From contig JAWPHD010000130.1 in assembly GCA_037043455.1 (NCBI GenBank), positions 186,001 to 250,000 of the forward strand: a stretch of 64,000 nucleotides of DNA, read 5' to 3'. Both the position numbers and the translations under genes were made by a program. Of the stretch, positions 3,076 to 59,799 are shown in pieces; the stretch's first letter is position 1, and the number at the start of each line of letters is the position of its first letter. Origin of the DNA: Cyrtodaria siliqua. Its lineage: Eukaryota; Mollusca; Bivalvia; Adapedonta; Hiatellidae. Under the pieces are notes generated by a model. The model was not told the origin of the DNA and ran no database searches. It saw only the letters and a program-made list of their open reading frames with translations.

Positions 3076-3606
3076 TAAAAAGCCACAAAGCAAGTACTCA
3101 ATGACTTGGCACAAGCCAGGGCAACAAGAGAACAAACTGGTAAGGGTACGACAAGACACGATTCAAGACAAACATCAAACGCTACCATTCTTAGACATCA
3201 TAATGGGGTCCACAATATGTCCGGTTATCGCACAATCAAAGTGGAAAACATATAGTGGCGAACTGTAAAGGGGTCAACAACTTGCAACAACTGTAAAGGG
3301 GTCAATGCATGCAGTGTGTTGCAAAATGATAGGCTCATAACCTCTTTTGATAAACGTTTTAACACGTTTTATAAATATTGTATGAGAGTGATTAGTACCA
3401 AGAATCTTGCGAAGTTTGTAAATCACATCACCATAGAAGTCGGGTTGTGTTAATCCTTGTCGCAGATTACCACAATTACAAGCATACACAAAAGGCACGG
3501 TATATGACATCACAACATAAATTGGTTGACAACAAGGCTACCACCTAGATCAGTGGCAAAAAAAAAAGTCACTGGGTGTTTAAACCAGGTTCTACGGTGA
3601 AACAGC
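3076..3606 (-). pseudogene. 5'-truncated Naiad-type Penelope-like element copy
   Basis: The minus strand encodes a stretch closely matching the C-terminus of the larger element at 12.1-15.3 kb (shared words QPDFYGDVIYKLRKILG and FIKRGY.PIILQ). It is followed by the same 3' untranslated sequence, ending near 3076. Upstream of the truncated coding part, at about 3490-3606, lies sequence matching the far 3' tail of the big element (near 15550-15665). Tail sequence therefore sits in front of a 5'-truncated copy, the pseudo-LTR arrangement known for Penelope-like elements. The ATGATG and TTTGATGTTTGTC words that flank the SECIS-like hairpin in the big copy are present, but the hairpin between them is shortened. 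Non-functional remnant. Confidence 0.8.
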
Positions 3607-6502: not shown

Positions 6503-8042
6503 AGTAGTACTGTGGACGCTTTGGCATCACGACTGCGCAGGCGCGGGTGCCCTTTTGTTTTCTAAAAACAGAACGTGGTATAAAGTTGGTCACTCCTCAT
6601 TTGCATATGAATGTATTGTGGGTAGAGAGGATTAGTGACAGGATGTTCTAACAAAGGATATTGACTTAATCCTTTAGCGTACCCACGCGATAGGATGAGT
6701 GTCATAGGTTAATCCCTCTATTTAATCGACACTATTGAGAGACAGGATGTCGGAGTTCATTTTGTATAAAAACCGCAGAGGGGATTACTGACAGGATGCT
6801 CGTACAAAAGGTATTGACATTTAGACTTAATCTATGGACATTATAGAGACAGGATGTCTGAGTTCCTTTTGTATAAAAACCGCAGAGAGGATTACTGCCA
6901 GGATGTTGGAACAAAAGGTATTGACATTTAGACTTAATCTGTGGACATTATAGACAGGATGTCTGATTTGAAAACAAGATTTGACATGTTAAGACCTTCA
7001 ATAACTAGACTTGACGTTGATTTCTATAGCACAAACGGACACGACCGCTATGGAAATCGTGAACAAAATACCGGAAACACTATTATACTAATATTTTGAA
7101 CACAATATTTGACATTTAGGACTCGACTGTAGACGTTCATTAATTTTAATTACTTATTGGCAGTTAATTAACAAGTGATACACATGTATACAAAAGTCTC
7201 CTCAATGAGTAGTTGAATCCACGGAGTGATTTTGTACTAGCTTAATGAAACTCGCATATCCAATCTCATCACCACCACCAACACACCACCAACAACATCA
7301 GCGACACCAAACACAACAACAGCAACAACAACAACAACAACAATATCAGCAACAACAACAACTACAACAACAACAATACCACCAACAACGACACCACTAC
7401 CAACAATTAACCACACCACCATCAACAACAGCAACAACATCCAACACCCACTGACATTTCTAAAATTTCATCTAAACACATCCATGATCACTTATGAAAT
7501 GTACTTTAATAGAAGTCGTATTCTACATAACTAGAATTGTACATGTTGATACATGTATTGTCCAAATATTGTGATTTGAACTTGGCTTAACAAGTCACTG
7601 AAGTCATTTCTATAGAAAGTTGATCATGTATTTACTTTAAGTATTAAGTCGCCCAGGTAACGGATTAACTTTTGACCATTAGGGGATTAAATCGTAAATT
7701 TTTTACCGAGTTAAAGAATTCATGTTTATACGTTATAAAAATGATATCCGTACATGTTCAACATTTTTATACCTAGCTACGTATATTTATATACCAAAAT
7801 GTTCGGAATTTCGCGCGCTATCTGATGGTATAACAAATGTGAAACTTTTGATTCGGACTTAAAATCAGTTTTATAACCTTAGGGTATCATTTAATGTCTA
7901 ATGTTCAATTGTATTTCATTTTCTAACACATCTCACAATGGCCTTTCGAATAAACCTTGTAATTTAAACCATATACAACTGATACCATTTGATAGATATG
8001 TTTACGCTGATTCTAAAAATGTATACTTTTGTTTATCTATCT
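6503..8042 (+). repeat. left terminal inverted repeat of the Polinton-like element
   Basis: Matches the reverse complement of 9764-11375 throughout, with scattered substitutions and small indels (for example the repeated ACAGGATGTC / GACATCCTGTC words and the CAA-rich tract). It contains internal ~120-bp near-duplicates around 6745-6965 with the words GACAGGATGTC and GTATTGACATTTAGACTTAATC. Confidence 0.8.
7245..7454 (+). repeat. (CAA)n/(CCA)n microsatellite in the left TIR
   Basis: Trinucleotide-rich tract. Because the period is three it opens ORFs on both strands (poly-Gln/His on plus, Val-rich on minus) that are artefacts. The mirrored tract lies in the right TIR at about 10440-10625. Confidence 0.85.
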
Positions 8043-9763: not shown

Positions 9764-11375
9764 AACAGATAGGTAAACAAAAGTATACATTTTTAGAATC
9801 AGCGTGAACAGATATATCAAATGGTATCAGTTGTATACGGTTTAAATTACAAAATAAGTTTTTTTTAATGCTCTTATGCAATAATTTTAAAAGTAAACAA
9901 AATCGACCCGAGAACCCTAGGTTTATTCGAAAGTTCATTGTGAGATGTATAAGAAAAATGAAAAAAAAAAGAACATTAGACATTAAATGATACCCTAAGG
10001 CTATAAAACTCATTTTTAGTTATTTTCCGAATCAAAAGTTTCACATTGGTTTATACCATCAGATAGCGCGCAAAATTCCGAACATTTTGGTATATAAATA
10101 TACGTAGCTAGGTAGAAAAAAAATTGAAAATAGACGGGTATCATTTTTATAACGTATGAACATGAATTCTATAACTCGGTGAAAATTTACGATTTAATCC
10201 CTTAATGGTCAAAAGTTAATCAGTTACCTGGGCGACTTACTATTTAAAGTAAATACATGATCAACTTTCTGTAGAAATGACTTCAGTGACTTGTTAAGCC
10301 GAGTTCAAATCACAATTTTTGGGCAATACATGTATCAACATGTACAATTATTGTTATGTAGAATACGACTTCTATTAAAGACAGAGTACATTTCATAAAT
10401 GATCATGGATGTGTTTAGATGAGTTTTAGAAATGTCAGTGGGTGTTGATGTTGTTGCTGTTGTTGATGGTGGAGTGGTTTAATTGTTGGTAGTGGTGTCG
10501 TTGTTGATGGCATAGTTGTTGTTGTAGTTGTTGTTGTTGCTGATATTGTTGTTGTTGTTGTTGCTGTTGTTGTGTTTGGTGATGCTACTGTTGTTGTTGG
10601 TGGTGGTTGTGTTGGTGTTAGGTGATGAGATTGGATATGCGAGTTTTATTAAGCTAGTACAAAATCACTCCATGGATTCAACTACTCATTGAGGAGACTT
10701 GTGTATACATGTATAACACTTGTTAATTAACTGTCAATAAGCAATTAAAATTATGAACGTCTACAGTCGAGTGTCACATGTCAAATATTGTGTTCAAAAT
10801 ATTGGTATAATAGTGTTTCCGGTCCTTTGTTCACGTTTTCCATTGCGGTCTTGTCTGTTTGTGCTATTTATAGAAATCAAAGTCAAAAAAAGTATGATAA
10901 TGGACCTTTGGAAACGGCCGAGCACGACACATACGAAATATTGCAGTCTCGGTTTGATTGAGACTGTTCAAGTCTATTTATAGAAGGTCTTAACATATCA
11001 AATCTTGTTTTCAAATCAGACATCCTGTCTCTATAATGTCCACAGATTAAGTCTAAATGCCAATACCTTTTGTACGAGCATCCTGTCAGTAATCCCCCTC
11101 TGCGGTTTATATACAAAAGGAACTCAGACATCCTGTCTCTCAATAGTGTGGATTGAATAGAGGGATTAACCTATGACACTCGCCCTATCGCGTGGGTACG
11201 CTAAAGGATTAAGTCAATATCCTTTGTTAGAACATACTGTCACTAATCCCCTCTACCCACAATACATTCATATGCAAATGAGGAGTGACCTACTTTATAC
11301 CACGTTCTATTTTTAGAAAACAAAATGGCGCCCGCGCATGCGCAGTAGTGATACCAAAGCGTCCACAGTACTACT
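9764..11375 (-). repeat. right terminal inverted repeat of the Polinton-like element
   Basis: Reverse-complement partner of 6503-8042. It is about 70 bp longer overall because of small insertions and deletions such as the A-rich stretch near 9860-9970. Divergence from the left arm suggests an old insertion. Chance ORFs here (9738-10013, 10753-10983, 10883-11143) are not supported. Confidence 0.8.
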
Positions 11376-11920: not shown

Positions 11921-12109
11921 TTGACGCCGAAATATTTCCCACCAGGCTTTTATGCGTCAATTAGAGATACTCTTGTCGTAAACAATCACGGAATAGAAAA
12001 AAATGGCTCAGGAATTTTTATTTTATTTTTTCTGTTCCCGTATAACAACGCAAAATACGTGGTGAAATACCATTATTTCCAAAACTTTCAAGGAAATATG
12101 TTTCAATAA
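11921..12109 (+). pseudogene. small ORF of unknown origin upstream of the Naiad ORF
   Basis: A 62-codon ORF starting at a TTG, in a different frame from the Naiad ORF that follows. Its composition is protein-like (it includes PPGFYASI). It may be a fragment of the same structural-protein family as 8939-9361, but that is only an impression. Confidence 0.2.
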
Positions 12110-12464
12110 CTGAGGGATGATTATTGCTGGATGCCAATCCATCTACCTGCCATATATAATAACTACACCTTTAAATCTTCATTCGGCAACCTCGTTTCAT
12201 GTTCCTTCTAATAATATTACTAGGATTTTTAATAATGGCTCAAAAGATTCCGTAACTCCTCTAGGATCACCTGTTTTGAGGAAATACCATATAAAGTCTC
12301 CTTTCAGAAATAAGTTAGTTCATTCAAGACGCAGGGTGTTTCCCTCTATTAATAAGTGCAATGCTAAGAGGTGCAGTTGTTGCAGTTATTTGTCTTGCAA
12401 GTCCACCATTAAATCAGCTGTTAATGGTAGATTGTTTAATGTATGTCTAGCTTCAAATGTTGAT

Positions 12465-12467
12465 TGA
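12465..12467 (+). other. in-frame UGA, candidate Sec codon 1
   Basis: The reading continues in the same frame from SNVD through this TGA into RTIHVIYIL. Penelope-type endonucleases often have a Cys shortly before the hydrophobic strand that forms the GIY half of the motif, so Sec replacing Cys is plausible. Mutation to a stop remains possible. Confidence 0.55.
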
Positions 12468-12497
12468 CGTACTATTCACGTCATTTATATTCTGACT

Positions 12498-12500
12498 TGA
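12498..12500 (+). other. in-frame UGA, candidate Sec codon 2 (zinc-site position)
   Basis: Reads VIYILT-UGA-NAPRCGIQYVGQT. In EN+ Penelope elements a Cys at this point, with a second Cys just before the YIG half, forms the CCHH zinc site. The second Cys (12513-12515) is intact, so only the first is UGA. This is the strongest of the three recoding candidates. Confidence 0.65.
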
Positions 12501-13775
12501 AATGCACCACGTTGCGGTATACAATATGTTGGACAAACAGGTCGATCCTTAAAAGTTCGATTTCGTGAACACAAATATAATGCGAGTAATCCTAAAAAGT
12601 TATATAATTACTTGTACCAACACTTTCGTCAGTCAGGTCATAATTTTCATTACGTAACTGTTCAACCGGTTGAATATATTTTTTTTGATAATGATGCTAC
12701 TAAAAGCTTCAAAATAAAAGCTAGACATATTGCAGAACTTAAGTGGATGAAAAACTTACAGACACCTTATCCACTCGGCCTTAATGACAATATTTACCAA
12801 GAAGGAAATATTTCTAAAGATCCTAATATTGACATTTTTTCTATATTTTCTATTCGAAAGCGTAAATCTAGGTCTCATGGTCTTAGGTGTAATGGTAACA
12901 TCAAACGTAAATCACGTGTAATTATTTCTGTCGCTGATTTACATACTATTTTTAAACAGTCTGGAAAGCACTCTATGCTTTCACGGCTCACCTCTTTGTC
13001 CTTTTCTTCACTTAAGTTGATCGACGAAGAAGCAGACAAAATCTTCATTCGTACAGATCCCTTGTATAACACTGCTTCCATAGTTCAAAGCTACACACAA
13101 CATGTTCTCCGACCCCATATTGACAAGGAGTCTGATCACGTCAGGCATTTTCTAAAACTACTATATATTAATAAAGGTATTGATTTCATTGACATGCCTA
13201 GTATTTTTCGGGATACTCATGTAGTTGATTCTATCCCAAAATATTTCAAAAATTCCGAAAGTCCTGTAATTTGTTATAATTAGAAAAAGCCTATTAGAAA
13301 TATTATTTTCAACTACAATAAAATAGTTTCTGACCTTGATATAGTACATAATACTCCTAAGGAATGTGAATGCAACACATCACAATGTTGCTATGCCCCA
13401 GCAGGTCATGTCATCACTGGTAATTTTGATATTGTTGATAAACGTATTCGGCATTTGTTTTCGAAAGGTCCTAAATATAGATTACCTTCAACTATTGATT
13501 TTAATGCCTGTCGTGCCCAGATCGCCCACTCCATTGAAGATTTTAGTATAAAATGGTGTCGTAGAGAACATGCGGACCCAAACTCGCTTTCTACTTGGAA
13601 AAAGTCAATTCTTAAAATTATAGATACACGTATTAACTTTTATAATGCTAACCCCTCTTTACTTCCTCCGAGACCTAGGTTTTCGTTTCGTAATTTAAAA
13701 TCGGGAATTCAGGAGTTTCATAATAAATTTGTTTTAGTTCCTGCAGATAAAGCAGCTAATAATGTAATTATTGTT

Positions 13776-13778
13776 TGA
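13776..13778 (+). other. in-frame UGA, candidate Sec codon 3 (RT entry)
   Basis: Follows NNVIIV and precedes RLHY in the RT N-terminal motif. Related elements, as I recall them, usually carry Cys here. The frame stays open for about 170 bases on both sides until the separate 8-bp duplication at 13948. Confidence 0.6.
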
Positions 13779-15248
13779 CGCCTACATTACGTCAGTGTTT
13801 TCTCTCTGGAACTCGGCAGCACCAAATCGTATACTCCAGTTAATTCTACTGAGGATGATGTTGTTTCCGCACATATCACTCGGTGCACTACTTTCAAGGC
13901 TGGTGTAAACGATAAGCCAAATAAACTGCCTACCATGTACTGGATTCCTAAATTACTAAATTACATAAAAATCCGTATAAGGCTCGCTTTATTTCTAATT
14001 CTAGTGCCTGCACCACAACAAACATCTCCAAACTGTTAATTTCTTGTCTTACTGCCGTTAAAGATCACGTTAAACTATATTGTGATAAAACTTATGAAAA
14101 TTCTGGGATTAATTTATTTTGGTCTATAAAAAATTCAGGAGACGTTCTGGATAAAATTTTCGATAAAGGTCAAGTTTCATCAATAAGCACTTATGACTTC
14201 TCTACACTATATACAACCTTACCACATCACCTTATTAAAGACAAGCTAATTTCTCTTATTCAAAAAACATTCGTTAGAGAAAATACTACATTTTTGGCAT
14301 GTAATAATATTAAAGCGTTTTTTACTAACGGCAGTTTAGATAATTATACTATGTGGACTTGCTATGAAGTTTGTGAAGCACTCATCTTCCTATTAGATAA
14401 TATTTTCGTCAGGTATGGTACCGTTTATAGACAAATTGTTGGTATCCCTGTGGGTACGAACTGTGCACCACTTGTCGCAGATTTGTTTTTATTTTGCTAT
14501 GAAAGAGATTTCATGTTGAGTTTTACACCAGATACCCAGGCAGATGTTATTGAATCTTTTAATGACACCTCTCGGTATCTGGATGACATACTGAACATTG
14601 ACAACCCTTTCTTTCCAACTATGGTTGATAATATTTATCCTAAAAAACGTCAGCTTAATAAGAAAATATATCTGATAATAACGCTTCTTTTCTTGATTTA
14701 GATCTCTCGACTGAAAATGGTAAAATAATTATCAAAATCTATGACAAGAGAGATGATTTTAATTTTGACATTGTTAATTATCCCCACTTGGATGGGGATG
14801 TTCCCCGAGCAACTTCTTATGGGGTGTATCAGTCTCAACTTATTCGTTTTTCTAGAGCTTGTACTCGAGTTGAGGACTTTAATATTCGTAATCTTTGTAT
14901 AACCAAAAAGTTACCAAATCAGGGTTTCCGTTACCATAAACTTCGTAAAACCTTTGCAAAATGTTATTATCGTAACCCTGATCTTCTTTACAAATATAAA
15001 TGTAATTTAAGGACTCTTCTGCGACAAGGACTATCACAACCTGACTTCTATGGTGATGTGATTTATAAACTTCGTAAGATTCTTGGTCATGATCACTTTC
15101 ATACTATCTTTGTTAAACTTGTTAAAAAGTTTATCAAAAGAGGTTATGACCCTATCATTTTGCAACGTACTGCATGCTTGGTGGTGGACCCTTTTACAGT
15201 TCGCCACTATGCTTTCCTCTTTAATTGTACGATGACCGGACAGGCTGT

Positions 15249-15307
15249 GGACCCTATGATGACGCCTACCTAAAGCCCATTGGGACGGTGGCGTTTGATG
15301 TTTGTCC
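15249..15307 (+). ncRNA. SECIS-like hairpin overlapping the stop codon (form II-like)
   Basis: Helix I is GGAC (15249-15252) with GTCC (15304-15307). An internal loop follows, then the quartet ATGA (15256-15259) opposite GAT (15297-15299). Helix II is 15260-15270 with 15287-15296, including GACGCC/GGCGTT and ACC/GGT with one bulged T. Unpaired AAA lies at 15272-15274, 12 nt after the ATGA. An apical mini-stem CCC-ATT-GGG spans 15276-15284. Quartet, spacing and apical adenosines fit the eukaryotic SECIS pattern, form II. The TAA stop (15271-15273) overlaps the conserved adenosines. Such an element would let all upstream UGAs be read as selenocysteine. Drawn by eye, not scored. Confidence 0.65.
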
Positions 15308-15830
15308 ATGATTTTTCTTGTCGTGCCCTTAATGGTTTATTCTCTTACTGGGTTCTGCCAAGTCATTGAGTACCTTCATTGTGGCTTTCTAGGCTATTGT
15401 TTTTTGTATTATATTTACACGAGCATATTTGTGTTTTACTTATATTGCCTATTGATGCTGCCTTGTTGGCTAGAGATTAGATTATGGCGGGGATTTTTTT
15501 ATTTACACTGTCCTGTTTTAATGGGATGACAGTAGGGTAAGTGTGAGGTTTGGTGCACCCTAGAACCGGTTTAAACCCCCAGTGGCCTACTTTGCTACTG
15601 ACCGTTCCAAGGCGGTAGCCCTATTGTCAACCCTTTTGAGTTTGTGATGTCGTTTACTTTTATTATTACTTTTGCCTTCTTGTTTGTCTGTTTCCATGTT
15701 TGTTTCTGTGTTTTGTGGTTGACTGTCCTCCTTGAATGCTACTTTCCCTGTCCGATCTTTTTATATTTCTTTGTTACCATGGCAACCACCTTTCTTATGC
15801 GAGTTTACCCAAAAGGGGAGAAGACTTCGG
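15274..15830 (+). other. Naiad 3' untranslated region with pseudo-LTR sequence
   Basis: Non-coding tail. Positions 15310-15400 match the 3' end of the copy at 3.08-3.17 kb. Positions about 15550-15665 (around AGAACCGGTTTAAACCCCC and GGTAGCCCTATTGTCAACC) match sequence lying upstream of the truncated coding part in that copy. The exact 3' end is not visible. ORFs at 15302-16065 are chance. Confidence 0.6.
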
Positions 15831-28174: not shown

Positions 28175-29256
28175 AAACAAGAGGGCCTGTGAAAGCTCTA
28201 CTGGCTTAAACGGCTCTTATATCAACGGTTGTCACAAAATTCACATCAGTACTACTTTTAAAACATTGCAAAAACAAGAGGGCCTGAGTATGGCCCTAAG
28301 GGGTAAAAACTGTTAACTCCATCAACAATCAACGAGCTGGAAAAAAACCCGCAATAGGCACAACTAGAAATCATACCAATGCTTCCTGCTAAGTTTCGTC
28401 AAACCCAACAAGGTTAAAAGAAATAAGTAATTAAACCAATTTAAACAATGAAAAATCAAAAAAAAAATCAAAAGAAATAAACAAAAAATAACATAAAAAA
28501 GAAAGAAAATATTTAACAAAAAAAAAATAATATGAAAATAACATTAAAAAAAAACTCTGCTGTTACTGGTCCGATCAGGCTGGTTTTCGAACTTGTCCGA
28601 GCTTTCATTGATATTAACAATCTGGAAAAGGTTGGTAAAGATCGGATTAAACATGAAGGCCCTATCGTCTTAACGAGGCAAAATATAGCATTTTTAACTA
28701 ATTCAAGGGCCATAACTCCACTGCTACTTGTCAGATCTGGCTGTTTTCATATTTGTCCGAGCTTTCATTGACATTAACAATCTGGTAAAGTGTGGTAAAG
28801 ATCGGATGAAAAATGAAGTCCCTATCGTCTTAACGAGGCAAAATATAGCATTTTAAATAAATCAAGGGCCATAACTCTGCTGTTACTGGTCTGATCTGGC
28901 TGGTTTTCACACTTGTCCGAGCTTTCCTTGACATTAACAATCTGGCAAAGTTTGGTAAAGATCGGATGATAAATGAAGGCCCTATCATCTTAACGAGGCA
29001 AAATATAGTATTTTTAACTAATTCAAGGGCCATAACTCCGCTGTTACTGGTCCGATCTTGCTGGTTTTCGAACTTGTGCGAGCTTTCATTGATAACAATC
29101 TGTTAAAGTTTGGTAAAGTTCAGATGAAAAATGAAGGCCCTAGCGTCTTAACGAGAAAAAGTTAAAGGACGACGGACGATGAATGATGGACGACGACGAC
29201 GGACGACGGCCAACTCGCCATCCCATAAGCTCTGCTGGCCTTTGGCCAATAGAGCT
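28175..29256 (+). mobile_element. Helentron-like element, family 1, inserted in the LINE
   Basis: Starts AAACAAGAGGGCCTGTG with GCTCTACTGGCT just inside. Ends in the hairpin AGCTCTGCTGGCC-TTT-GGCCAATAGAGCT followed by AAAAA. The interior has four ~160-bp monomers (from about 28559, 28720, 28880 and 29041) and a GACGACGGACGACGG microsatellite. A second start-like AACAAGAGGGCCTGAG at 28274 suggests an internal nested terminus. LINE codons continue on each side (SKVVD, then ILTSTFYIDAV), so the boundaries are set by the host ORF. No target duplication of any length is visible. No protein is encoded, so it is non-autonomous. Confidence 0.75.
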
Positions 29257-42320: not shown

Positions 42321-43697
42321 CTTGTAAAGGCAAAGTATAGTATATAGAGTGGAGTCTTGGAGTGGAGTGAATAATTGGAGTGACCTTGGAGTCACATTTT
42401 GGAGTGACTTTAGAATCAAATTTAGACCGAATATTTTGGAGTCAATTTTTGGAGTCTAAATAAATCTGGAGTCTCTTATTTTTTCGTACAATTAGTAACT
42501 TTTTAGAAACTAATATATAGTTCTGACTGTTGTTCTTTGTTTATCCTTATGACAGACGGACAACTATTTTTATTGACTTAGATATTTTTATTTACTTTTG
42601 TGATATATAGAATCTTACATTCCTAAATGAGTATACATTCTTTGGATAAAATCAATAACACATTATAACACATAATACAGAATAATACTGATGTAAGATC
42701 ATCTGTATATTTAATTCATTGGAAAAAGAATCATAACCTGATCTTATTAGAAAATCCAGGATAATCATGTGAAAATAAGCTTCCACCACCCTCCAAATAT
42801 GAATCAGTTAATGTACCGCTGTTTTGAGAGATAAAGTAAACATAGTCTTGGGTTCGGACAGCAAAAATGGCCGATAACAGTCAAATGCTTGTTTTATTTC
42901 TATTAATCTACTGTATCTTAATCTCTCTCTGAGCAATACGCAGCAAGACAATTAAGACCAGTCTCACTGATGATTTAAATTAATTTTCGCCTCCCATTAC
43001 AGACGTCAAATTGTCTGACATTCAGTGTCAGTGTATACATAGTTCCAATATGTCAGTCAAATCAATATCATATAGAACATGTAGTAACAGTGCCCAAGTT
43101 AAATTAGATTTGCAGTTTTGAAATTATTTATTAATGGATTAAATTTCATTAAAATGCATTTTAACTAAATTTAATCAATTAATAAATAATTGCATGTGCA
43201 AATGAAGTAACTCAAGTAAATGTATTAGTTTCTAAAAAGTTATTAATTGTAAGGAAAATTAAGATTCCAAATTTAGACTAAACAAGAGGCCCAAGAGGGC
43301 CTGTATCGCTGTACTTGCTATAATTATGGTGTCCACGGTGGGGTGGTGGTAGACTGGGTGGGTAAGGGGTGGGTGGGGGGATAGAAGGATTCTGTGTCAG
43401 ATATGGCAATATCAAACTAGTTTTATATAAACTGTCTTCAATTACCAAGATATGGGGGAGGATGTATTTGGCTCAAGTTTGGCTGTCTTTAAAACAAATC
43501 AAACTTTCGACCACATATTTGACCACACGGTCACCATTTGAACAAACTTGGTAGAGGACCATAAGCTGAATGTAAATACAAAATATTAAACTGTTGGCAC
43601 TTGTAATTTCAGAGAAGAAGATTTTTCAAGTTTGTCCCTATATAAGTCTATATAAAACATGTGACCCCGAGGATAGGGCCAAATTTGACTAAAGGGT

Positions 43698-43790
43698 CAC
43701 CATTTGAATGAATGAATGAATGAATGAATGAATGGTGTTTTATGGCACGTCGACACATAAATAGGACATATTGTGCGCAAAAAACGAGGA
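43698..43790 (-). mobile_element. SINE tail with (ATTC)n, inserted in a monomer
   Basis: (GAAT)n followed by GGTGTTTTATGGCACGTCGA, lying between two ACCATTTG words that look like an 8-bp target duplication. On the minus strand it ends in an (ATTC)n tail. Confidence 0.65.
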
Positions 43791-45017
43791 ACCATTTGTA
43801 CAAACTTGGTGGATGACCATAAGCTGATGGTAAATACAATACAACGTATTAAAACTCTTGCTCTTGTAGTTTCAGAGAAGAAGATTGTTTTTAAAGTTTT
43901 TCCCTATTAGGGTCCAAATTTGATCCCTATAACTGCTTATAGCAAATGCAAATATTAAACCCCTGGCTCTTGCAGTTTCAGAGAAGATGATTTTTTCAGT
44001 TTTTCCCTATACATGTCTATGTAAAACATGTGACGCTTGGGGCGGGGTCAAATGTGACCCCAGGGTCACCATTTGAACAAACTTGGTAAAGGACCATAAG
44101 CTTATAGCAACAGCAAAATATTAAACCTTGGCTCCTGCAGTTTCAGAGAAGAATATTTTTTAAGTTTTTCACTATACATGTCTATGTAAAACATGTGACC
44201 CTTGGGCCGGGGCCAAATGTGACCCCAGGGTCATCATTTGAACAAACTTGGTAAAGGACCATAGGCTTATAGCAACAGCAACATATTAAACCTCTGGCTC
44301 TTGCAGTTTCAGAGAAGAAGATTTTTTAAGTTTTTCACTATACATGTCTATGTAAAACATGTGACCCTTGGGGCGGGGCCAAATGTGACCCCAGGGTCAC
44401 CATTTGAACAAATTTAGTAGAGGACCATAAGCTGATGCTACATGTAATACATGAGAGCTCTGTGCCATGTGGTTCCTGAGAAGAAGATTTTTTTCAGTTT
44501 TTCCCTATACAAGCCTATGTAAAACTGTGACCACCGGGGTGGGGCCAAATGTGACCACTGGGTCACCATTTGAACAAACTTGGTAGAGGACCACAAGCTT
44601 ATAGCAAATGCAAAATATTAAACCTCTGGCTCTTGCAGTTTCAGAGAAGAAGATTTTTTTAAGTTTTTCCCTATAAATGTCTATGTAAAACATGTGACCC
44701 TTGGGGCGGGGCCAAATGTGACCCGAGGGTCACCATTTGAACAAACTTGGTAAAGGATCATAACCTTATAGTAAATGCAAAATATCAAACCTCTGGCTGT
44801 TGTAGTTTCCGAGAAGAAGATTTTTTAAAAAAAAATCCTATATAAGTCTATGTAAAACTGTGACCCCGGGGCGGGGACAAATTTTACCCCAGGGTCACCA
44901 TTTGAACAAAATTAGTAGTGGACCATAAGATGATGATACATGTAATACATGAGAGCTCTGTGCCTTGTGGTTTCAGAAAAGAAGATTTTTTAAAGTTTTT
45001 TCCTATATGTCTATATG

Positions 45018-45293
45018 AACAAGAGGCCCAAGAGGGCCTGTGGACGCTCTACTGGCTAACATGGCTCTTATAACATCAATGAAGTGAGTGACTGCCATTT
45101 ACGTTTTTTTGAAAGTTTCGGGCAAAAAACAGCTTTTTAACTAAATCAAAGGCCATAACTAAAGAATCTGGTAAAGTTTGGTAAAGATCAGATGAAAAAT
45201 GAAGGCCCAACCGTATAAACGAGGCAACATATAGCATGTTTAACTAAATCAAGAACACCTCTGTTACTGGTCCGACTGGTCGAACATAGAGCT
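45018..45293 (+). mobile_element. short Helentron-like element, family 1, nested
   Basis: AACAAGAGGCCCAAGAGGGC start with GGACGCTCTACTGGCTAACA, one core monomer remnant, and an ACATAGAGCT-AAAAA end lacking the full hairpin. It is the sister of 54323-54606, which has the same internal structure and the same shortened end. Confidence 0.7.
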
Positions 45294-45490
45294 AAAAAAA
45301 TGCAAAAAAAATGCAAAAAAAATGCAAAAAAAAAAAAGAAAATTAAAAAAAAAAAAAAAAAATTGCAAAAAAATAAATAAATTGCAAAACATTTAAAAAA
45401 AAAAGAAGATATTTCAAAAAAAAAAAAAATCAAAAAAAAAAAATTAAAAAAAAAAAAAATCAAAAAAAAAAAATTAAAAAAAATAAAAAT
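45294..45490. repeat. A-rich low-complexity tract
   Basis: Poly-A runs broken by TGC, GAAA and TTAAA. Gives a Phe-rich minus-strand ORF that is an artefact. A similar tract follows the sister element at 54607-54768. Confidence 0.85.
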
Positions 45491-47422
45491 ATCTCTATAC
45501 ATGTCTATGTAAAACATGTGACCCGAGGGTTACCATTTGAACAAACTTGGTAAAGGACCATAAACTTACAGCAAATGCAAAATATTAAACCTCTGGCTCT
45601 TGCAGTTCCAGAGAAGAAGATTTTTTTCAGTTTTTCCCTATACAAGCATTTATGTAAAACTGTGACCCCCGGGGCGGGGCCAGATGTGACCCCAGGGTCC
45701 CCATTTGAACAAAATTGGTAAAGGACCATAAGCTTATAGCAACAGCAAAATATTAAACCTCTGGCTCTTGCAGTTTCAGAGAAGAAGATTTTTTAAGTTT
45801 TTCCCTATACATGTCTATGTAAAACATGTGACCCTTGGGGCGGGGCCAAATGTGACCCCAGGGTCACCATTTGAACAAACTTGGTAAAGGACCATAAGCT
45901 TTTAGCAAATGCAAAATATTAAACCTCTGGCTCTTGCAGTTCCAGAGAAGATTTTTTTTCTTCAGTTTTTCCCTCTACAAGCATTTATGTAAAACTGTGA
46001 ATCCCCGGGGCAGGGCCAGATGTGACCCCAGGGTCCCCATTTGAACAAAATAGGTAAAGGACCATAAGCTTATAGCAACACCAAAATATTAAACCTCTGG
46101 CTCTTGCAGTTTCAGAGAAGAAGATTTTTTAAGTTTTTCCCTATACATGTCTATGTAAAACATGTGACCCTTGGGGCGGGACCAAATGTGACCCCAGGGT
46201 CACTATTGTCACTATTTGAACAAACTTGGTAAAGGACCATAAGCTTATAATAAATGTAACATATCAAACCTCTGACTCTTGTAGTTGGCGAGAAGAAGAT
46301 TTTTAAAAAAAAAATCCTATATAAGTCTATGTAAAACTGTGACCCTCGGGGCGGGGACAAATTTGACCCCCGGGTCACCATTTGAACAAACTTAGTAGAG
46401 GACCATAAGCTGATGCTACATGTATTACATGAGAGCTCTGTGCCATGTGGTTCCAGAGAAGAAGATTTTTTTCAGTTTTTCCCTATACAAGCCTATGTAA
46501 AACTGTGACCCCCGGGGTGGGGCCAAATGTGACCCCTGGGTCACCATTTGAACAAACTTGATAGAGGACCACAAGCTTATAGCAAATGCAAAATATTAAA
46601 CCTCTGGCTCTTGCAGTTTCAGAGAAGAAGATTTTTTAAGTTTTTCCCTATACATGTCTATGTAAAACATGTGACCCTTGGGGCGGGGCCAAAAGTGACC
46701 CGAGGGTCACCATTTGAACAAACTTGGTAAAGGACCATAAGCTTATAGTAAATGCAAAATATCAAACCTCTGGCTCTTGTAGTTTCCGAGAAGAAGATTT
46801 TTAAAAAAAAAATCCTATATAAGTCTATGTAAAACTGTGACCCCCGGGGCGGGGACAAATTTGACCCCAGGGTCACCATTTGAACAAACTTAGTAGAGGA
46901 CCATAAGCTGATGCTACATGTAATACATGAGAGCTCTGTGCCTTGTGGTTTCAGAGAAGAAGATTTTTTAAAGTTTTTTCCTATATGTCTATATGAAAAA
47001 CATGCAAAACCTCAATATACAAATTTTGGACCCCCGGGGCACGGCCATTTTTGACCCCGGGGACTTTATTTGAACAAACTTGATAGTCTAGGCGTTGGCG
47101 ATCATTTTAAAAGAAAAACTGTTGAAATCTGTCCAGCGGTTCTGGAGAAGAAGATTTTTTAAGGTTTCGACCATATATGGTAATGGCAGCCATCTTGGAT
47201 GTAGCATTGACCTAATTTTAACAAATCTAAAAAGCATTCAACTAAGGATCATCCACGTGAAGTTTGGTCAAAATTAGCCAAGCGGTTTCTGAGAAGAAGT
47301 CGTTTGAAGAAAAGTTAACGGACGACAGACGACAGACAGACGACAGACGACAGACAGACAGACGACGGACGACGGACAACACAGCATCCCATAAGCTCTG
47401 CTGGCCCTTGGCCAGTAGAGCT

Positions 47423-47836
47423 AAAAACAGGCAAAACCTCAATATACAAACTTTGGACCCCCAGGGCACGGCCATTATTGACCCCGGGGACTTTATTTGA
47501 ACAAACTTGATAGTCTAGGCATTGGCGATCATTTTAAAAGAAAAACTGTTGAAATCTGTCCAGCGGTTCTGGAGAAGAAGATTTTTTAAGGTTTCGACCA
47601 TATATTTTCGACCATATATGGTAATGGCAGCCATCTTGGATGTAGCGCTGACCTAATTTTAACAAATCTAAAAAGCATTCATCTAAGGATCATCCAAGTG
47701 AAGTTTGGTCAAAATTAGCCAAGCGGTTTCTGAGGAGAAGTCGTTTGAAGAAAAGTTAACGGACGGATGGACGGACGACGGAAGACACACCATCCCATAA
47801 GCTCTGCTGGCCCTTGGCCCCTTGGCCAGTAGAGCT
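47423..47836 (+). repeat. tandem duplicate of a Helentron-like 3' end
   Basis: Repeats the last ~410 bp of the preceding element (GGCAAAACCTCAATATACAA to GGCCAGTAGAGCT) including a second microsatellite and terminal hairpin. A 3' end in tandem is consistent with rolling-circle end bypass, but unequal exchange is also possible. Confidence 0.7.
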
Positions 47837-48585
47837 AAAAATAAAGAAGATTTGAACCCACGTCCCCTGGGGTTTCCAGTGTACATTACCAAATATTGAA
47901 AAAGGGCCATAACTCCGGTATTACTGGTTCGATCTGGCTGATTTTCCAACTCGTCCAAGCTTTCATTGATATCAACATGTGGCCAAGTTTGGAAAAGATC
48001 GAATACAAAATGAAGGCGCTAGAGTGTTCACAAGGCTGAAAATTGCATTTTTCATAATTCAAGGGTACATAACTCTGGTGTTCCTTCTCCGATACAGTTG
48101 GTTTTTGAAACTGTCCGAGCTTTCTTTGATATTAACAATCTGTGAAAGTTTGGTAAAGATCAAATAATAAATGAAGGTGCTAGAGTGTTCACAAGGCATA
48201 AAATGGCATTTTCCAGAAAAAAACAAGGGCCATAACTCTGGTGTTACTGATCCAATTTAGCTGATTTTCAAACTTGTCCAAGCTTTCATTTGTATTAACA
48301 ATCTGTGCAAGTTTGGTAAAGATCAAATAATAAATGAAGGTGCTTGAGTATTCACAAGGCTTAATATGGCATTTTTCAGCAAAACAAGGGCCATAATTCC
48401 GGTGAAACTAATCCGACCAGGCTGGTTTTCGAACTTGTCTGAGCTTTCATTGATATAAAGACACTGGCAAAGTTTCGTAAAGATCCAATTACTAATGAAG
48501 GCCCTGGAGTGTTCACAATGCAAAAGTTAATGGAAGACGGATGTATGGCCGGCCGGAAGCCTGACAACTCGATATCCCATAAAAA
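47837..48585 (+). mobile_element. truncated family-1 Helentron-like core
   Basis: Four to five ~163-bp monomers (GGGCCATAACTC, CAAACTTGTCCAAGCTTTCA, AAGTTTGGTAAAGATCAAAT), then GGAAGACGGATGTATGGCC and CATCCCATAA-like sequence where the terminal hairpin should begin. Here the sequence returns to the TIR element. Confidence 0.6.
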
Positions 48586-54138: not shown

Positions 54139-54319
54139 AACAAGAGGCCCAAGAGGGCCTGTGGACGCTCTACTGGCTAATATGGCTCTTATAACATCAA
54201 TGAAGCGAGTGACTATCGTCTTAAAGAGGCAAAATATAACATTTTTAACTAAATCAAGAGCCATAACTCCGCCGTTACTGGTCCAATCTGGCTGGTTTTC
54301 GAACTTGGCCAGTAGAGAT
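54139..54319 (+). mobile_element. 181-bp minimal Helentron-like element
   Basis: Complete family-1 start (AACAAGAGGCCCAAGAGGGC), part of one monomer and a GGCCAGTAGAGAT end, immediately followed by the start of the next element. The terminal hairpin is reduced to one arm, which pairs instead with GCTCTACTGGCT at the start. Confidence 0.65.
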
Positions 54320-54322
54320 AAT

Positions 54323-55931
54323 AACAAGAGGCCCAAGAGGGCCTGTGGACGCTCTACTGGCTAACATGGCTCTTATAACATCTATGAAGCGAGTGAGTGA
54401 CTGCCATTTACGTTTTTTTGGAAGTTTCGGGCAAAAAACAGATTTTGAACTAAATCAGGGCCATAACTAAAGAATCTGTTAAAGTTTGGTAAAGATCAGA
54501 TGAAAATGAAGGCTCTACCGTATTAACGAGGCAAAATATAGCATTTTTAAATAAATCAAGAGCCATAACTCCTCTGTTACTGGTCCGCCTGGTCCAACAT
54601 AGAGCTAAAAAAAAAAATATTAATAAAAAAAAAAAAAAAGAAAAAAAAAAAAAAAAAAATTAAAAAAAAAAAAAAAAAATTAAAAAAAAAAAAATTAAAA
54701 TTAAAAAATTAAAAAAAATATGAAATAAAAAAATATATATATTAATTAAAAAAAAAAATTAAAAGAATAAAAGTTTGGTAACGATCGGATGAAAAATGAA
54801 GGCCCTCTCGTCTTAACGAGGCAAAATATAGCATTTTTAACTAAATCAAGTGCCATAACTCCGCTGTTCCTGTTCCGATATGGCTAGTTTTTGAACTTGC
54901 TCGAGCTTTCATTGATATTAACAATCTGATAAAGTTTGGTAAAGATCAAATGAACAATGAAGCCCCTATCGTCTTAACGAGGCAAAATATAGAATTTTTA
55001 ACTAAATCAAGGGCCACAACTCCGCTGTTACTGGTCCGATATGGTTGGTTTTCGAACTTGTTCGAGCTTTAATGACATTTTAATGACATTAACAATCTGA
55101 TTAAGTTTGATAAAGATCGGATGAACAATGAAGCCCCTATCGTCTTAACGAGGCAAAATATAGCATTTTTAACTAAATCAAGGGCCATAACTCCGCTCTT
55201 ACTATTCCGATATGGCTGGTTTTCGAACTTGTCCGAGCTTTCATTGATATTAACCATCTGATAAAGTTTGGTAAAGATTGGATGAAGAATGAAGCCCCTA
55301 GCGTCTTAACGAGGCAAAATATAGCATTTTTAACTAAATCAAGGGCCAGAACTCCGCTGTTAGTGAGTGTTACTAGTCCGATATGGCTGGTTTGGTTTTC
55401 GAACTTGTCCGAGCTTTCATTGATATTAACAATGTGGTAAAGTTTGGTAAAGATATGATGAAAAACGAAGGCCCTATCATCTTAACGAGGCAAAATATAG
55501 CAATATAGCATTTTCAACTAAATCAAGGACCATAACTCTGGTGTAACTGGTCCAATCTGGCTGGTTTTCGAACTTTTTCGAGCTTTCATTGATATTAACA
55601 ATGTGGTAAAGTTTGGTAAAGATAGGTTGAAAAATGAAGGCCCTATCGTCTTAACGAGGCAAAATATAGCAATATAGCATTTTTAACTAAATCAAGGGCC
55701 ACAACTCCGCTGTTACTTGGCCGATCTGGCTGGTTTTCGAACTCATCCGAGCTTTCATTGATATTAACAACCTGTTAAAGTTTGGTAAAGATTAGATGAA
55801 AAATGAAGGCCCTATCGTCTTAACGAGACCAAAGTTAACAACGGACGACGGACGGACGGACGACGGACGACGGACGATCGACGGACAACTCGGCATCCCA
55901 TAAGCTCTGCTGGCCTTCGGCCAGTAGAGCT
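54323..55931 (+). mobile_element. Helentron-like element, family 1, full structure
   Basis: Order: AACAAGAGG start; start-proximal GCTCTACTGGCTAACATGG; an internal ACATAGAGCT-AAAAA end (54602-54606); an A-rich tract (54607-54768); about six ~163-bp monomers (GCATTTTTAACTAAATCAAG, GGTTTTCGAACTTGTCCGAG, AGTTTGGTAAAGATCGGATG); a GGACGACGGACGGACGGAC microsatellite (55838-55888); and the hairpin AGCTCTGCTGGCC-TTC-GGCCAGTAGAGCT followed by AAAAA. The internal end suggests one element inserted into or fused with another. Non-coding. Confidence 0.75.
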
Positions 55932-56195
55932 AAAAATGAAAAAAAAAAAAAAAAAAAAGAGTAAAAAGATCTGGTAAAGTTTGGTAAAGATCAGATTAAA
56001 AATGAAGGCCCTATTGCCTTAACAAGGCAAAATATAGCATTTTTAATGAAATCAAGGGCCATAACTCCGCTGTTACTGGTCCGATCTGGCTGTTTTCCGA
56101 AATTGTACGAGCTTTTATTGACATTAACAATCTGGTAAAGTTTGGTAAAGATCGGATGAAAAATGAAGGCCCTATCGTCTTTGGCCAGTAGAGCT
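55932..56195 (+). repeat. extra Helentron-like 3' portion in tandem
   Basis: After a poly-A run, 1.3 monomers are followed directly by GGCCAGTAGAGCT-AAAAA with no microsatellite or left hairpin arm. A third case of a repeated 3' terminus. Confidence 0.6.
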
Positions 56196-56397
56196 AAAAA
56201 TGTGTTACGCGACGCGACCAACAACGTGACTCCTATATAGTTCTCACTTTACTTTGCGAAAGCAGGGGTATAATCAAGCAGGATATATTGATTTGAGGTC
56301 CTTACCAATTCTTTCTTGCATCAAGCTGTAACTGAATATAGGCAAAAATAATAATAACAATTTTATAACACATGACTCAAAGTTGTGTGATCCGTAC

Positions 56398-56500
56398 CTG
56401 TACTAAGACGAGTGGATTTCTTCTTCACACCCATTCTGTCTTTCTCACGGGCTGAGGCATCACTTAGTTGTGGAGTCAGGTACCGCCTCATGTTGGGTGA
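56398..56500 (-). CDS. candidate host exon B (minus strand)
   Basis: Acceptor CTATTTGCAG and donor ACAG|GTACGG bound a 103-base open exon encoding SPNMRRYLTPQLSDASAREK then DRMGVKKKSTRLST. It starts in phase 0, matching the end of exon A, and ends in phase 1, matching exon C. Composition is basic and Ser-rich, probably a cytoplasmic or disordered segment. The upstream copy at 56545-56616 retains most of the same coding sequence. I do not recognise the family. Confidence 0.7.
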
Positions 56501-56544
56501 CTGCAAATAGAGAACTAACATAAAACACTTGTACTATAACACCC

Positions 56545-56616
56545 ATCCATTCTGTCTTTCTCACGGGCTGAGGCGTCACTTAGTTGTGGGGTTAGGTACC
56601 GCCTCATTTTGGGTGA
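56545..56616 (-). pseudogene. partial tandem duplicate of exon B
   Basis: The 5' 70 bases of exon B with its acceptor and ~45 intronic bases are repeated 116 bp away. There are four differences in the shared coding part, three synonymous. It lacks the last third of the exon and its donor. A GG|GTGTTA site nearby would give an incompatible phase, so it probably is not spliced in. Confidence 0.6.
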
Positions 56617-56869
56617 CTGCAAATAGAGAACTAACATAAAACACTTGTACAATAACACACACCAATTAAGCAAATTCTGACACAATGTTTATGTATCAAA
56701 ATTTTGATGAAGAATATGAAGAAATGATAGTTATACCCAATGTTAAAGTTTTTTTTGTGACCAAAAAACACAACAACAATTGAACCCCGAATCTGACCTT
56801 GACTGTGTCTTGAAATGTATATACAGAAAGTTATGAATAACTAAAAAATGTGTCCATGGGACCCGAATG
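56617..56869. other. intron sequence, no gene recognised
   Basis: AT-rich. The 5' end of the family-4 element probably lies here but no AACAAG-type start is recognisable. Confidence 0.4.
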
Positions 56870-57302
56870 CCCGCTAAAGGATTATTGGTTGCTTACAAAA
56901 TGGAGTAACAAAATGTTAAGTTAATAATAAAAGGCAAGTTATATGGACCTGATTTGGGTAGGAACATAATGGTGCCATATAGATGTATGTGTGTATGAAG
57001 TTTGAATAATGTAAGGCTTTTGGTATGTGAGTAATTGACTTAAATTAATAAACAAGGGGGCAAGATGGTCCTTAATAGGGTCAAGATGGCCCTAAATCGA
57101 TCACCTGAGTACTGGACCATTATCAAACTTCTTCGAAATCTTATGGTCATATACAACAGGTTTTTTTTTTGGCTGTTTTTATAGCGTGCCAATCCAATGA
57201 TTGGGGTTCAAAAGCTTAAATAAATGCTTGTGTTTATCTTGGTGTACAAAAAACAGTATTAAAGATATAATTATGAAAGGAATGCTTTACTTTATATTTT
57301 TC

Positions 57303-57400
57303 CGAATTTTATTAAAAATCACGCTAAAATTCCCAATTTTATGAAAAATCACGCTAAAATTCCCAATTTTATGAAAAATCACGCTAAAATTCCCAATTCC
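57303..57400. repeat. 30-bp tandem repeat, 3 copies
   Basis: Unit AAAAATCACGCTAAAATTCCC with AATTTTATG, three times with minor changes. Confidence 0.8.
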
Positions 57401-57480
57401 ATGGGTACGGGTCATGTTCCCAAAATCATGAAAAAAAGCCGTGTACAATCTTAGCAAGTTTGGTTAAGATTGTTCAAGAA

Positions 57481-57655
57481 ATGTTTGTTTGTTTGTTTGT
57501 ATGGTGTTTTACGTCATTTTCAACACATGTAAGGTTATATATGACGGTCCATTTTTTTGTGGAGGCAGACCAGCCACTTTTCCTGGGTAGAACAGGTACT
57601 GTACACCTCCTGCCATCCGTAAGAATCGACACTTCCTCACTCTGTTGTGTTAACA
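57481..57655 (-). mobile_element. SINE with (CAAA)n tail
   Basis: On the minus strand a body (CTGTTCTACCCAGGAAAAGT, CCGTCATATATAACCTTACA, GTAAAACACCAT) ends in (CAAA)n. A second copy with the tRNA-like head is at 61165-61345. ORFs at 57460-57786 are chance. Confidence 0.65.
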
Positions 57656-59799
57656 ACATTGATATAAAGACACTGACAAAGTTTGGTAAAGATCAAATAC
57701 AAAATGAAGGTGGTAGAACGACACCAGAGCTACATGTATATACGAGAGCTGTGTGCCTTGTGGTTTCAGAGAAGAAGATGTTTTAAGTGTTTCCCTATAC
57801 AAGTCTATGTAAACAGGTGACCCCTGGGGCAGGGCCAAATGGGATCCCAGGGTCACCATTTGAATAAACTTGGTAAGGACCATAAGCTCATAGTAAATGC
57901 AAAATATTAAACCTCTGGCTCTTGTAGTTTCAGAGAAGATTTTTAAAATTGTTTACTATATAAATCTATGTAAAACTGTGACGCCCGTGACGGGGCCAAA
58001 TTTGACCCCAGGGTCACCATTTGAACAAACTTGGTAGAGGACCATAAGCTTATAGCAAATGCAAAATATTAAACCTCTGGCTCCTGCAGTTTCAGAGAAG
58101 AAGATTTTTTAAAAGTGTTTCCCTACACGAGTCTATGTAAAACATGTGACCGCTGGGGCGGGGCCAAATGTGACCCCAGGGTCACCATTTAAACAAACTT
58201 GGTAAAGGACCATAAGCTTATAGTAAATATTAAACCTCTGGCTCTTGTAGTTTCAGAGAAGATTTAAAAAAAAAAAATCTATGTAAAACTGAGACGCCTG
58301 GGACGGGGCCAAATGTGACCCCCATGGTCACCATTTGAACAAACTTGGTAGAGGACCATTAGCTGATGCTACTTGTAATATATGAGAGTTCTGCGCCTGT
58401 GGTTTCAGAAAAGAAGATTTTTTAAAGTTTTTTCCTATGTAAGTCTATGATAAACATGCAAAATCTCAATATACAAACATTGGACCTCCGGGTCACGGCC
58501 ATTTTTGATCCCGGGGACTTCATTCGAACAAACTTGACAGTCTAGGAATGGACGATCATTTTAAAAGAAAAACTGTCGAAATCTGTCCATTGGTTCTTGA
58601 GAAGAATATTTTTTAAGGTTTCGACCATAATATGGTAAATCTTGGACGTCGCGTTGACCTAATTTTAATAAATCTAAAAAACATTCATCTAAGGTTCATC
58701 CAAGTGAAGTTTGGTCAAAATTGGCCTAGCGGATTCTGAGAAGAAGTCGTTTGAAGCAAAAGTTAACGACGACTGACGAAGAGTGATCCTAATAGATCAC
58801 CTTGAGCTGAAGCTTCAGCTCTGGTGATCTAAAAACGTCAATGTAAAATTTTAATGTAAATTAACAAAGTGTAAAAAGTAGGTCAATGTCATTTATATTG
58901 ACCTGATTTGGGTAGGAACATATTGCTGTCATACAGATGTAAGTGTGTATCAAGTTTAAAAGCTGTATGGCTTTTAGTATCTGAGAAACTGAGTTAATAA
59001 AAAACTTGAATGTAAAACTTGAATGTAAATTAACAAAGTGCCAAAGGTAGATCAAGGTAATTCATATTGACCCACTTTTCATTGGAACATATCGCTGTCA
59101 TGTTATCAACATTTGTAAAGTTTGAATGCTCTAAGGCATCTGGTGTTGGAGAAATTGATTTAACAAAAAACTTTGATGTAAAAAACTTGAATGATAAACT
59201 TTGATGTAAATTAACAAAGTGTAAAAACCGGGTTAAGGTCATTTATACTGACCTGATTTGGGTAGGAACATATTGCCGTCATACAGATGTAAGTGTGTAT
59301 GAAGTTTGGAAACTGTATGGCTTTTGGTATCTGAAAAGCTGAGTTAATAAAAAAACTTGAATGTAAAACTTCTATGTAAATTAACAGTGTAAAAAGTAGG
59401 CCAAGGTCATTTATACTGACACACTTTTCATTGAAACATATCGCTGTCATTTAGTTATCAACATTTGTAAAGTTTGAAAGCTCTATGGCATCTGGTGTTG
59501 GAGAAATGTAAATTAACAGTGTAAAAAGTAGGTCAAGGTGTTGGTAAGAACATATAGATGTAAGTGTGTATACTTTGAAAACTGTACAGCTTTTGGTATC
59601 TTGAGAAATTGACTTGATAAAAAACTTGGATGTAAAAACGGGACGTATGGACATGACGTACGTCCGGACGGACAAGGGTAACACTATACGCCCGCACCAC
59701 TTTCGTGGCGGGGCATAAAAAAGAAGAAATGAAAAAGTTACATCTGAAAAAGTTATATCTAAAGTTATATCTGAAATGTTATACTGGTAGAACAAACTA

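Follow-up and report, generated by a model that had tools for sequence, protein, structure and literature searches.

A form II SECIS element that encloses the stop codon of a presumed Naiad-type Penelope-like retroelement in Cyrtodaria siliqua

The window, that is, the whole stretch of 64,000 nucleotides analysed here (C130:186001-250000 of the host's own assembly, which comprises 2.88 Gb in 26,948 contigs), carries on its forward strand a copy of what we take to be a Naiad-type Penelope-like retroelement. Its open reading frame (ORF) is broken and consists of the following parts:

11997-13283, + strand: N-terminal part of the ORF with TGA read as open, encoding a GIY-YIG nuclease (PF01541, 23.5 bits, cut-off 22.6) and ending at a TAG
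13284-15273, + strand: remaining broken ORF (reverse transcriptase (RT) part and C-terminus) in three overlapping frames, delimited from the frames and from homologs

The domain search on the window's own fragments gave this PF01541 match and no match to an RT family. PF01541 and PF00078 are found together in some full-length homologs, e.g. P0280, and the element has the order by which a Naiad element is recognized, a GIY-YIG domain followed by RT. Further marks of Naiads are a CxC linker motif and a pseudo-LTR structure; the window element contains CEC within KECECNTSQCC, a candidate for the motif, and a piece of 3' UTR, which may be a trace of the pseudo-LTR structure, lies upstream of a truncated second copy of the element. 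The window copy is dead, interrupted by a TAG at 13281 and by two or more frame changes; the TAG is absent in all 11 readable sequences among 20 fetched copies. For comparisons with other proteins, three queries were used, which found 3314 homologs (C-terminal 203 aa), 1098 homologs (middle piece) and 173 homologs (joined query), and the best 120 of each were evaluated.

At the end of the ORF, a hairpin was found that has the following parts:

15248-15308, + strand: form II SECIS element (Rfam SECIS_1, 39.4 bits, full model 1-64)
15249-15252 with 15304-15307, + strand: basal helix GGAC/GTCC, from sequence and fold
15256-15259, + strand: 5' quartet AUGA, coding, spaced 12 nt from the AAA
15271-15273, + strand: TAA stop codon of the frame 14662-15273, in the SECIS apical loop
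15272-15274, + strand: apical AAA, 12 nt after ATGA
15274-15284, + strand: third apical A and mini-stem of CCC (15276-15278) and GGG (15282-15284), the mark of form II, from fold and Rfam
15296-15299, + strand: 3' quartet UGAU (TGAT), from the Rfam alignment

A sequence-only reading of this DNA had proposed a form II SECIS layout with these basal helix, quartet, AAA and mini-stem parts, all of which are present at the coordinates given above, and the covariance-model search that it had suggested as a check matched 15248-15308 at 39.4 bits, above the curated cut-off of 35 and over all 64 positions of the model. With both strands of the whole 64 kb window searched against 4227 Rfam families, the E value of this match was 2e-4 and no family other than SECIS_1 reached its cut-off; a mir-12 match (28.3 bits, cut-off 55) and a BYDV match (17.1 bits, cut-off 75) were regarded as chance and discarded. 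The structural features of form II, i.e. the AUGA/UGAU quartet, the apical AAA and the mini-stem above it, are all seen. In the minimum-energy fold, the helix has nine pairs (6+3) and a single bulged U at 15267, so that the proposed single bulge stands and the proposed length of about 11 bp does not. The fold energy taken alone is moderately unusual (z = -2.17; 5 of 200 shuffles were equally stable), and the weight of the case therefore lies on the covariance-model match together with conservation in other copies. The hairpin is more than chance. It differs from the usual location of a SECIS, wholly within the 3' UTR, which is not a structural criterion, in that its 5' arm is coding and the TAA stop at 15271-15273 provides two of the three apical adenosines, as had been suspected from the letters alone.

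The frame contains three TGA codons at positions where relatives have cysteine:

12465-12467, + strand: in-frame TGA site 1, Cys in relatives
12498-12500, + strand: in-frame TGA site 2, Cys in relatives, before the GIY-YIG core
13776-13778, + strand: in-frame TGA site 3, Cys in relatives

Two further TGAs (12063 and 12111) precede the likely start, the position of which is uncertain. Among the best 120 of 173 homologs of the joined query, 53 were aligned at all three sites and 49 of these have C,C,C; an in-frame TGA where relatives have Cys is one mark of a selenoprotein gene, and the element shows it at these sites. The four exceptions are P0305 (C,Q,C), P0338 (Y,C,C), P0358 (C,C,W) and P0317 (W,W,W), the last of which is best explained by a gene call in which TGA was taken as Trp. 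At site 3, the best 120 of 1098 middle-piece homologs comprise 59 that end exactly there, 24 with W, 23 with C, 4 with F, L or Y and 10 that end or align elsewhere, in a protein database in which a terminating stop codon is not visible and which is biased to sequences without stops. Seven proteins (P0243, P0247, P0248, P0250, P0254, P0255 and P0258) have the tail DSMMAPT, keeping a SECIS-type tail together with Cys at site 3; in this group we would expect TGA at sites 1 and 2. A contrast in tails between all-Cys homologs (1/49) and the others (12/71) was set aside as weak, because the C-termini were unaligned.

Other copies of the element were sought in the host assembly with the C-terminal protein as query. 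From 124,338 first-look candidates 150 matches were scored, so the copy number is a lower bound. The scored copies, the window itself excepted, are 94-97% identical, and by a count made by hand 30 of the 150 have an open frame of exactly 496 codons, which is the distance from site 3 to the TAA, and 5 more have 495-499 codons. Fifty loci (L062-L111), which are the best matches to the window copy and no random sample, were fetched and gave 39 sequence-distinct copies, window included, after 11 that were identical over the tested stretch had been dropped. In 38 of these 39 the TAA lies in the apical loop, so the overlap of ORF end, stop and SECIS that had been read from a single copy recurs; AAA and the 3' quartet TGAT are each likewise kept in 38/39. 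The 5' quartet is GTGA in 20, ATGA in 18 and TTGA in 1. Of the parts whose loss from other copies had been named as evidence against a SECIS, the adenosines and the 3' quartet are thus retained, and AUGA itself is found in just 18/39. Pairs of the fold are kept in 609 of 624 cases over the 39 copies. A compensatory change in the helix, of the kind that had been proposed as a check, is seen in a diverged older copy in L087, where the pair 15265-15291 is T-A instead of C-G, but the adjacent pair is broken and the 3' quartet altered in this one decayed copy, and the example is weak. Twenty loci were scanned with Rfam and 10 reached the SECIS_1 cut-off, namely 5/7 with AUGA, 5/12 with GUGA (35.6 bits) and 0/1 with UUGA. 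The GUGA quartet is also present in copies with the 496-codon open frame, e.g. L086 and L090 (columns equal to 15256).

The TGA codons recur as well. Among the first 30 loci, site 3 could be read in 15 and is TGA in 14 of these; over all 50 loci, 34 rows were readable, 33 with TGA and 1 with TGG, and when 8 rows for twice-fetched places had been removed by hand, TGA was found in 25/26 places, window included. Sites 1 and 2 are TGA in 4/4 loci that cover them, the window not counted, two of which (L088 and L089) look alike. At such divergence drift after insertion dominates, and conservation among these copies therefore reveals the make-up of the source elements; it does not demonstrate selection on individual sites. 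When P0018 was used as a query for diverged families, 128 matches of 70-72% identity came up, many at known places, and no new family. A scan of the host assembly with RF00031 gave 0 matches; as it also missed the window's own element and gave 0 in 14 control genomes, it was uninformative.

Three distinct diverged neighbours (70-79%) still show a legible TATGATGACGTC, and two continue with TAAA, of which one occurs in L070 as well as L093 and the other in L087; in the third, located in L070, the stretch after TATGATGACGTC is lost. The window itself contains a second copy:

3076-3466, - strand: truncated copy of the element's 3' end, 76% identity, with 13 nt of the apical SECIS lost

Between 3466 and 3076, no SECIS match was obtained up to E = 10. 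Just upstream of this truncated copy lies a minus-strand piece of the 3' UTR (3599-3500), as pseudo-LTR or tandem insertions would give, and another minus-strand piece of the 3' UTR (679-510) is isolated.

Very probably, as judged from comparisons of sequences, a Naiad-type Penelope-like retroelement here codes for a protein with three selenocysteines, and the hairpin is its form II SECIS. Where relatives are intact, their SECIS would bring in the host SECIS-binding protein and the selenocysteine (Sec) elongation factor, the UGAs at 12465, 12498 and 13776 would then be read as selenocysteine where related elements have Cys, and translation would terminate at the UAA within the SECIS apical loop. 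Selenocysteine insertion is what we infer here, from the SECIS match, the correspondence between TGA and Cys and the conservation of both in other copies. Naiads with such properties are reportedly known already: the work of Craig et al. 2021 is said to describe selenoprotein-coding Naiad Penelope-like elements in clams and spiders, with an N-terminal GIY-YIG domain and RT, several in-frame TGAs, a SECIS at the 3' end and very many copies, and the window element is alike in its GIY-YIG and RT, multiple TGAs, 3' SECIS and high copy number. Its hairpin shares with the form II SECIS (Rfam RF00031) the quartet, the 12-nt spacing to AAA, the apical mini-stem and the basal helix; the form II SECIS is normally placed in the 3' UTR, where an excerpt of PMC8310308 also puts cellular SECIS elements, whereas that of the window has a coding 5' arm and a stop in its apical loop. 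An excerpt of PMC8659212 states that in eukaryotes SBP2 binds the SECIS, which is located downstream of the UGA, and quotes a distance of at least 51-111 nt between the two; in the window copy, 15249 is 1473 nt downstream of site 3 and 2784 nt downstream of site 1.

With UAA in the apical loop, the same bases serve the final codons, the stop and the SECIS, and the C-terminal peptide follows from the hairpin. Such a peptide can be recognized in more distant relatives, since an AUGA placed at the 12-nt distance from the A's in UAA gives a tail with M-x at a fixed spacing from the stop, which is itself invisible in protein data. Among the best 120 of 3314 C-terminal homologs, 76 end in M-(M, T, N, K, S, R or I)-x-x-x and 44 do not; the 76, many of which are copies of few families so that independent events are far fewer, are made up of 54 of the 57 with a script-measured tail of 12-16 residues and 22 with the anchor elsewhere. 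Identity to the window protein is 57-60% for the SDSMMVPT proteins, which share the C-terminal pattern that the layout forces. In two of them, P0059 and P0104, the region is read in two frames; when back-translated, they match at 87 of 98 overlapping positions at offset 1, and together they spell ATG?TGGTTCCGACTY?AAG...GGTMGGGGCYTG?TG. When the gaps were filled towards a SECIS, four fillings gave a ten-pair helix and an apical stem with z = -3.1 to -3.8, values that are favoured by the fills themselves. These readings imply for the P0059/P0104 group a putative SECIS of other letters in the same layout. P0081 gives nearly the same reading as P0059 (97/99) and adds no independent support, and for P0065 no ungapped offset fitted (best 56 of 74 positions). 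A TGA stop that lies within the quartet and is read in another frame would, speculatively, fit the tails in GT plus L, Q, R or P (P0036, P0037, P0054, P0057 and P0089).

Two accounts of this layout have to be weighed, both compatible with the SECIS of a selenoprotein-coding Naiad. According to the first, the SECIS arose or was acquired beside the end of the ORF, and the frame simply runs into the hairpin until it reaches a stop; the hairpin would decode UGA and its position would have no function. We hold this to be somewhat more probable than its negation, considering that short-tailed relatives (e.g. P0006 and P0010) stop about eight codons earlier, so that in the family at large the stop has no fixed place; the 76 of 120 C-terminal homologs with the stop-in-apical-loop spacing speak against it, although many of them belong to a few families. 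Also, as far as excerpts of PMC6769590 and PMC8310308 report, the fowlpox GPX4 SECIS, which likewise overlaps coding sequence, works in mammalian cells, so that position need not matter; that SECIS lies inside the ORF of a viral gene, in contrast to that of the window, which extends across the stop of a retroelement that is cellular and has three TGAs.

According to the second account, a ribosome stopping at the UAA would cover the SECIS, and each finished round of translation would then disturb the signal. The size of the ribosome footprint underlies such covering. The layout might in this way act as a self-limiting switch, in which a ribosome that has decoded the three UGAs and terminates at UAA must cover and unfold the SECIS, Sec insertion cannot coincide with termination, the full-length protein stays low and the C-terminal peptide is a by-product of a selected RNA signal. 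We put this forward tentatively and think it rather doubtful; overlap without a function of its own is likelier than regulation.

Two further readings would deprive the hairpin of a role in selenocysteine insertion. That the TGAs are plain stop codons gained as copies decayed, with a hairpin that is a relic or arose by coincidence, is highly improbable. In its favour, the window copy is dead and 5' truncation is seen in most of the fetched copies; against it, the TGAs are common to copies that have diverged by about 4-5% from the window, they fall exactly on positions that are Cys in 49/53 relatives, and the Rfam E value is 2e-4. Least credible of all is a hairpin that serves retrotransposition through template recognition by the reverse transcriptase, with UGA readthrough by another route, since the quartet, the 12-nt spacing, the AAA and the mini-stem are specific for SECIS and the TGAs lie on Cys positions, even though element matches in the genome end at about 15764-15776, which places the hairpin near the element's 3' end, and structured motifs are reportedly known in Penelope-like element RNAs.

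For the selenoprotein-coding Naiad preferred here, what is new is the conserved layout with the stop inside the SECIS, whereas Sec-coding clam Naiads are reportedly already published; the open literature searched, a coverage that did not include Craig et al. 2021, contained no mention of a SECIS overlapping a stop. A retroelement family of many copies with its stop in the SECIS suggests that termination and Sec signalling can share bases, and the layout offers a natural test of whether ribosomes clear a SECIS. The fixed spacing also provides a C-terminal peptide signature by which candidate Sec-coding Naiads may be found in protein data.

An alignment-based scan of viral contigs and scans of phages and plasmids gave no relative; 60 loci in viral contigs found with a DNA pattern (L001-L060) were taken as chance. 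The scan of genome contigs gave one distant locus, L061 in a Thioglobus MAG, with 40% identity over query residues 6-125 and no Rfam match up to E = 1, and the joined-query search found P0335 in a gamma-proteobacterial symbiont of Lucinoma. Stray bivalve host DNA would fit both occurrences.

Several other repeats were observed in the window. About 1.5 kb upstream of the element's ORF lies a TGT microsatellite (10443-10619, 59 units, 68% matches); Naiads have an insertion bias for microsatellites. An inverted repeat (6503-6783 and 11095-11375) has arms of 281 nt that are 94% complementary and 4.3 kb apart. Arrays of a repeat of about 160-167 bp, which presumably recall the bivalve BIV160 satellite, are scattered over the right half of the window at 28399-29210, 43483-48571 and 54213-58431.
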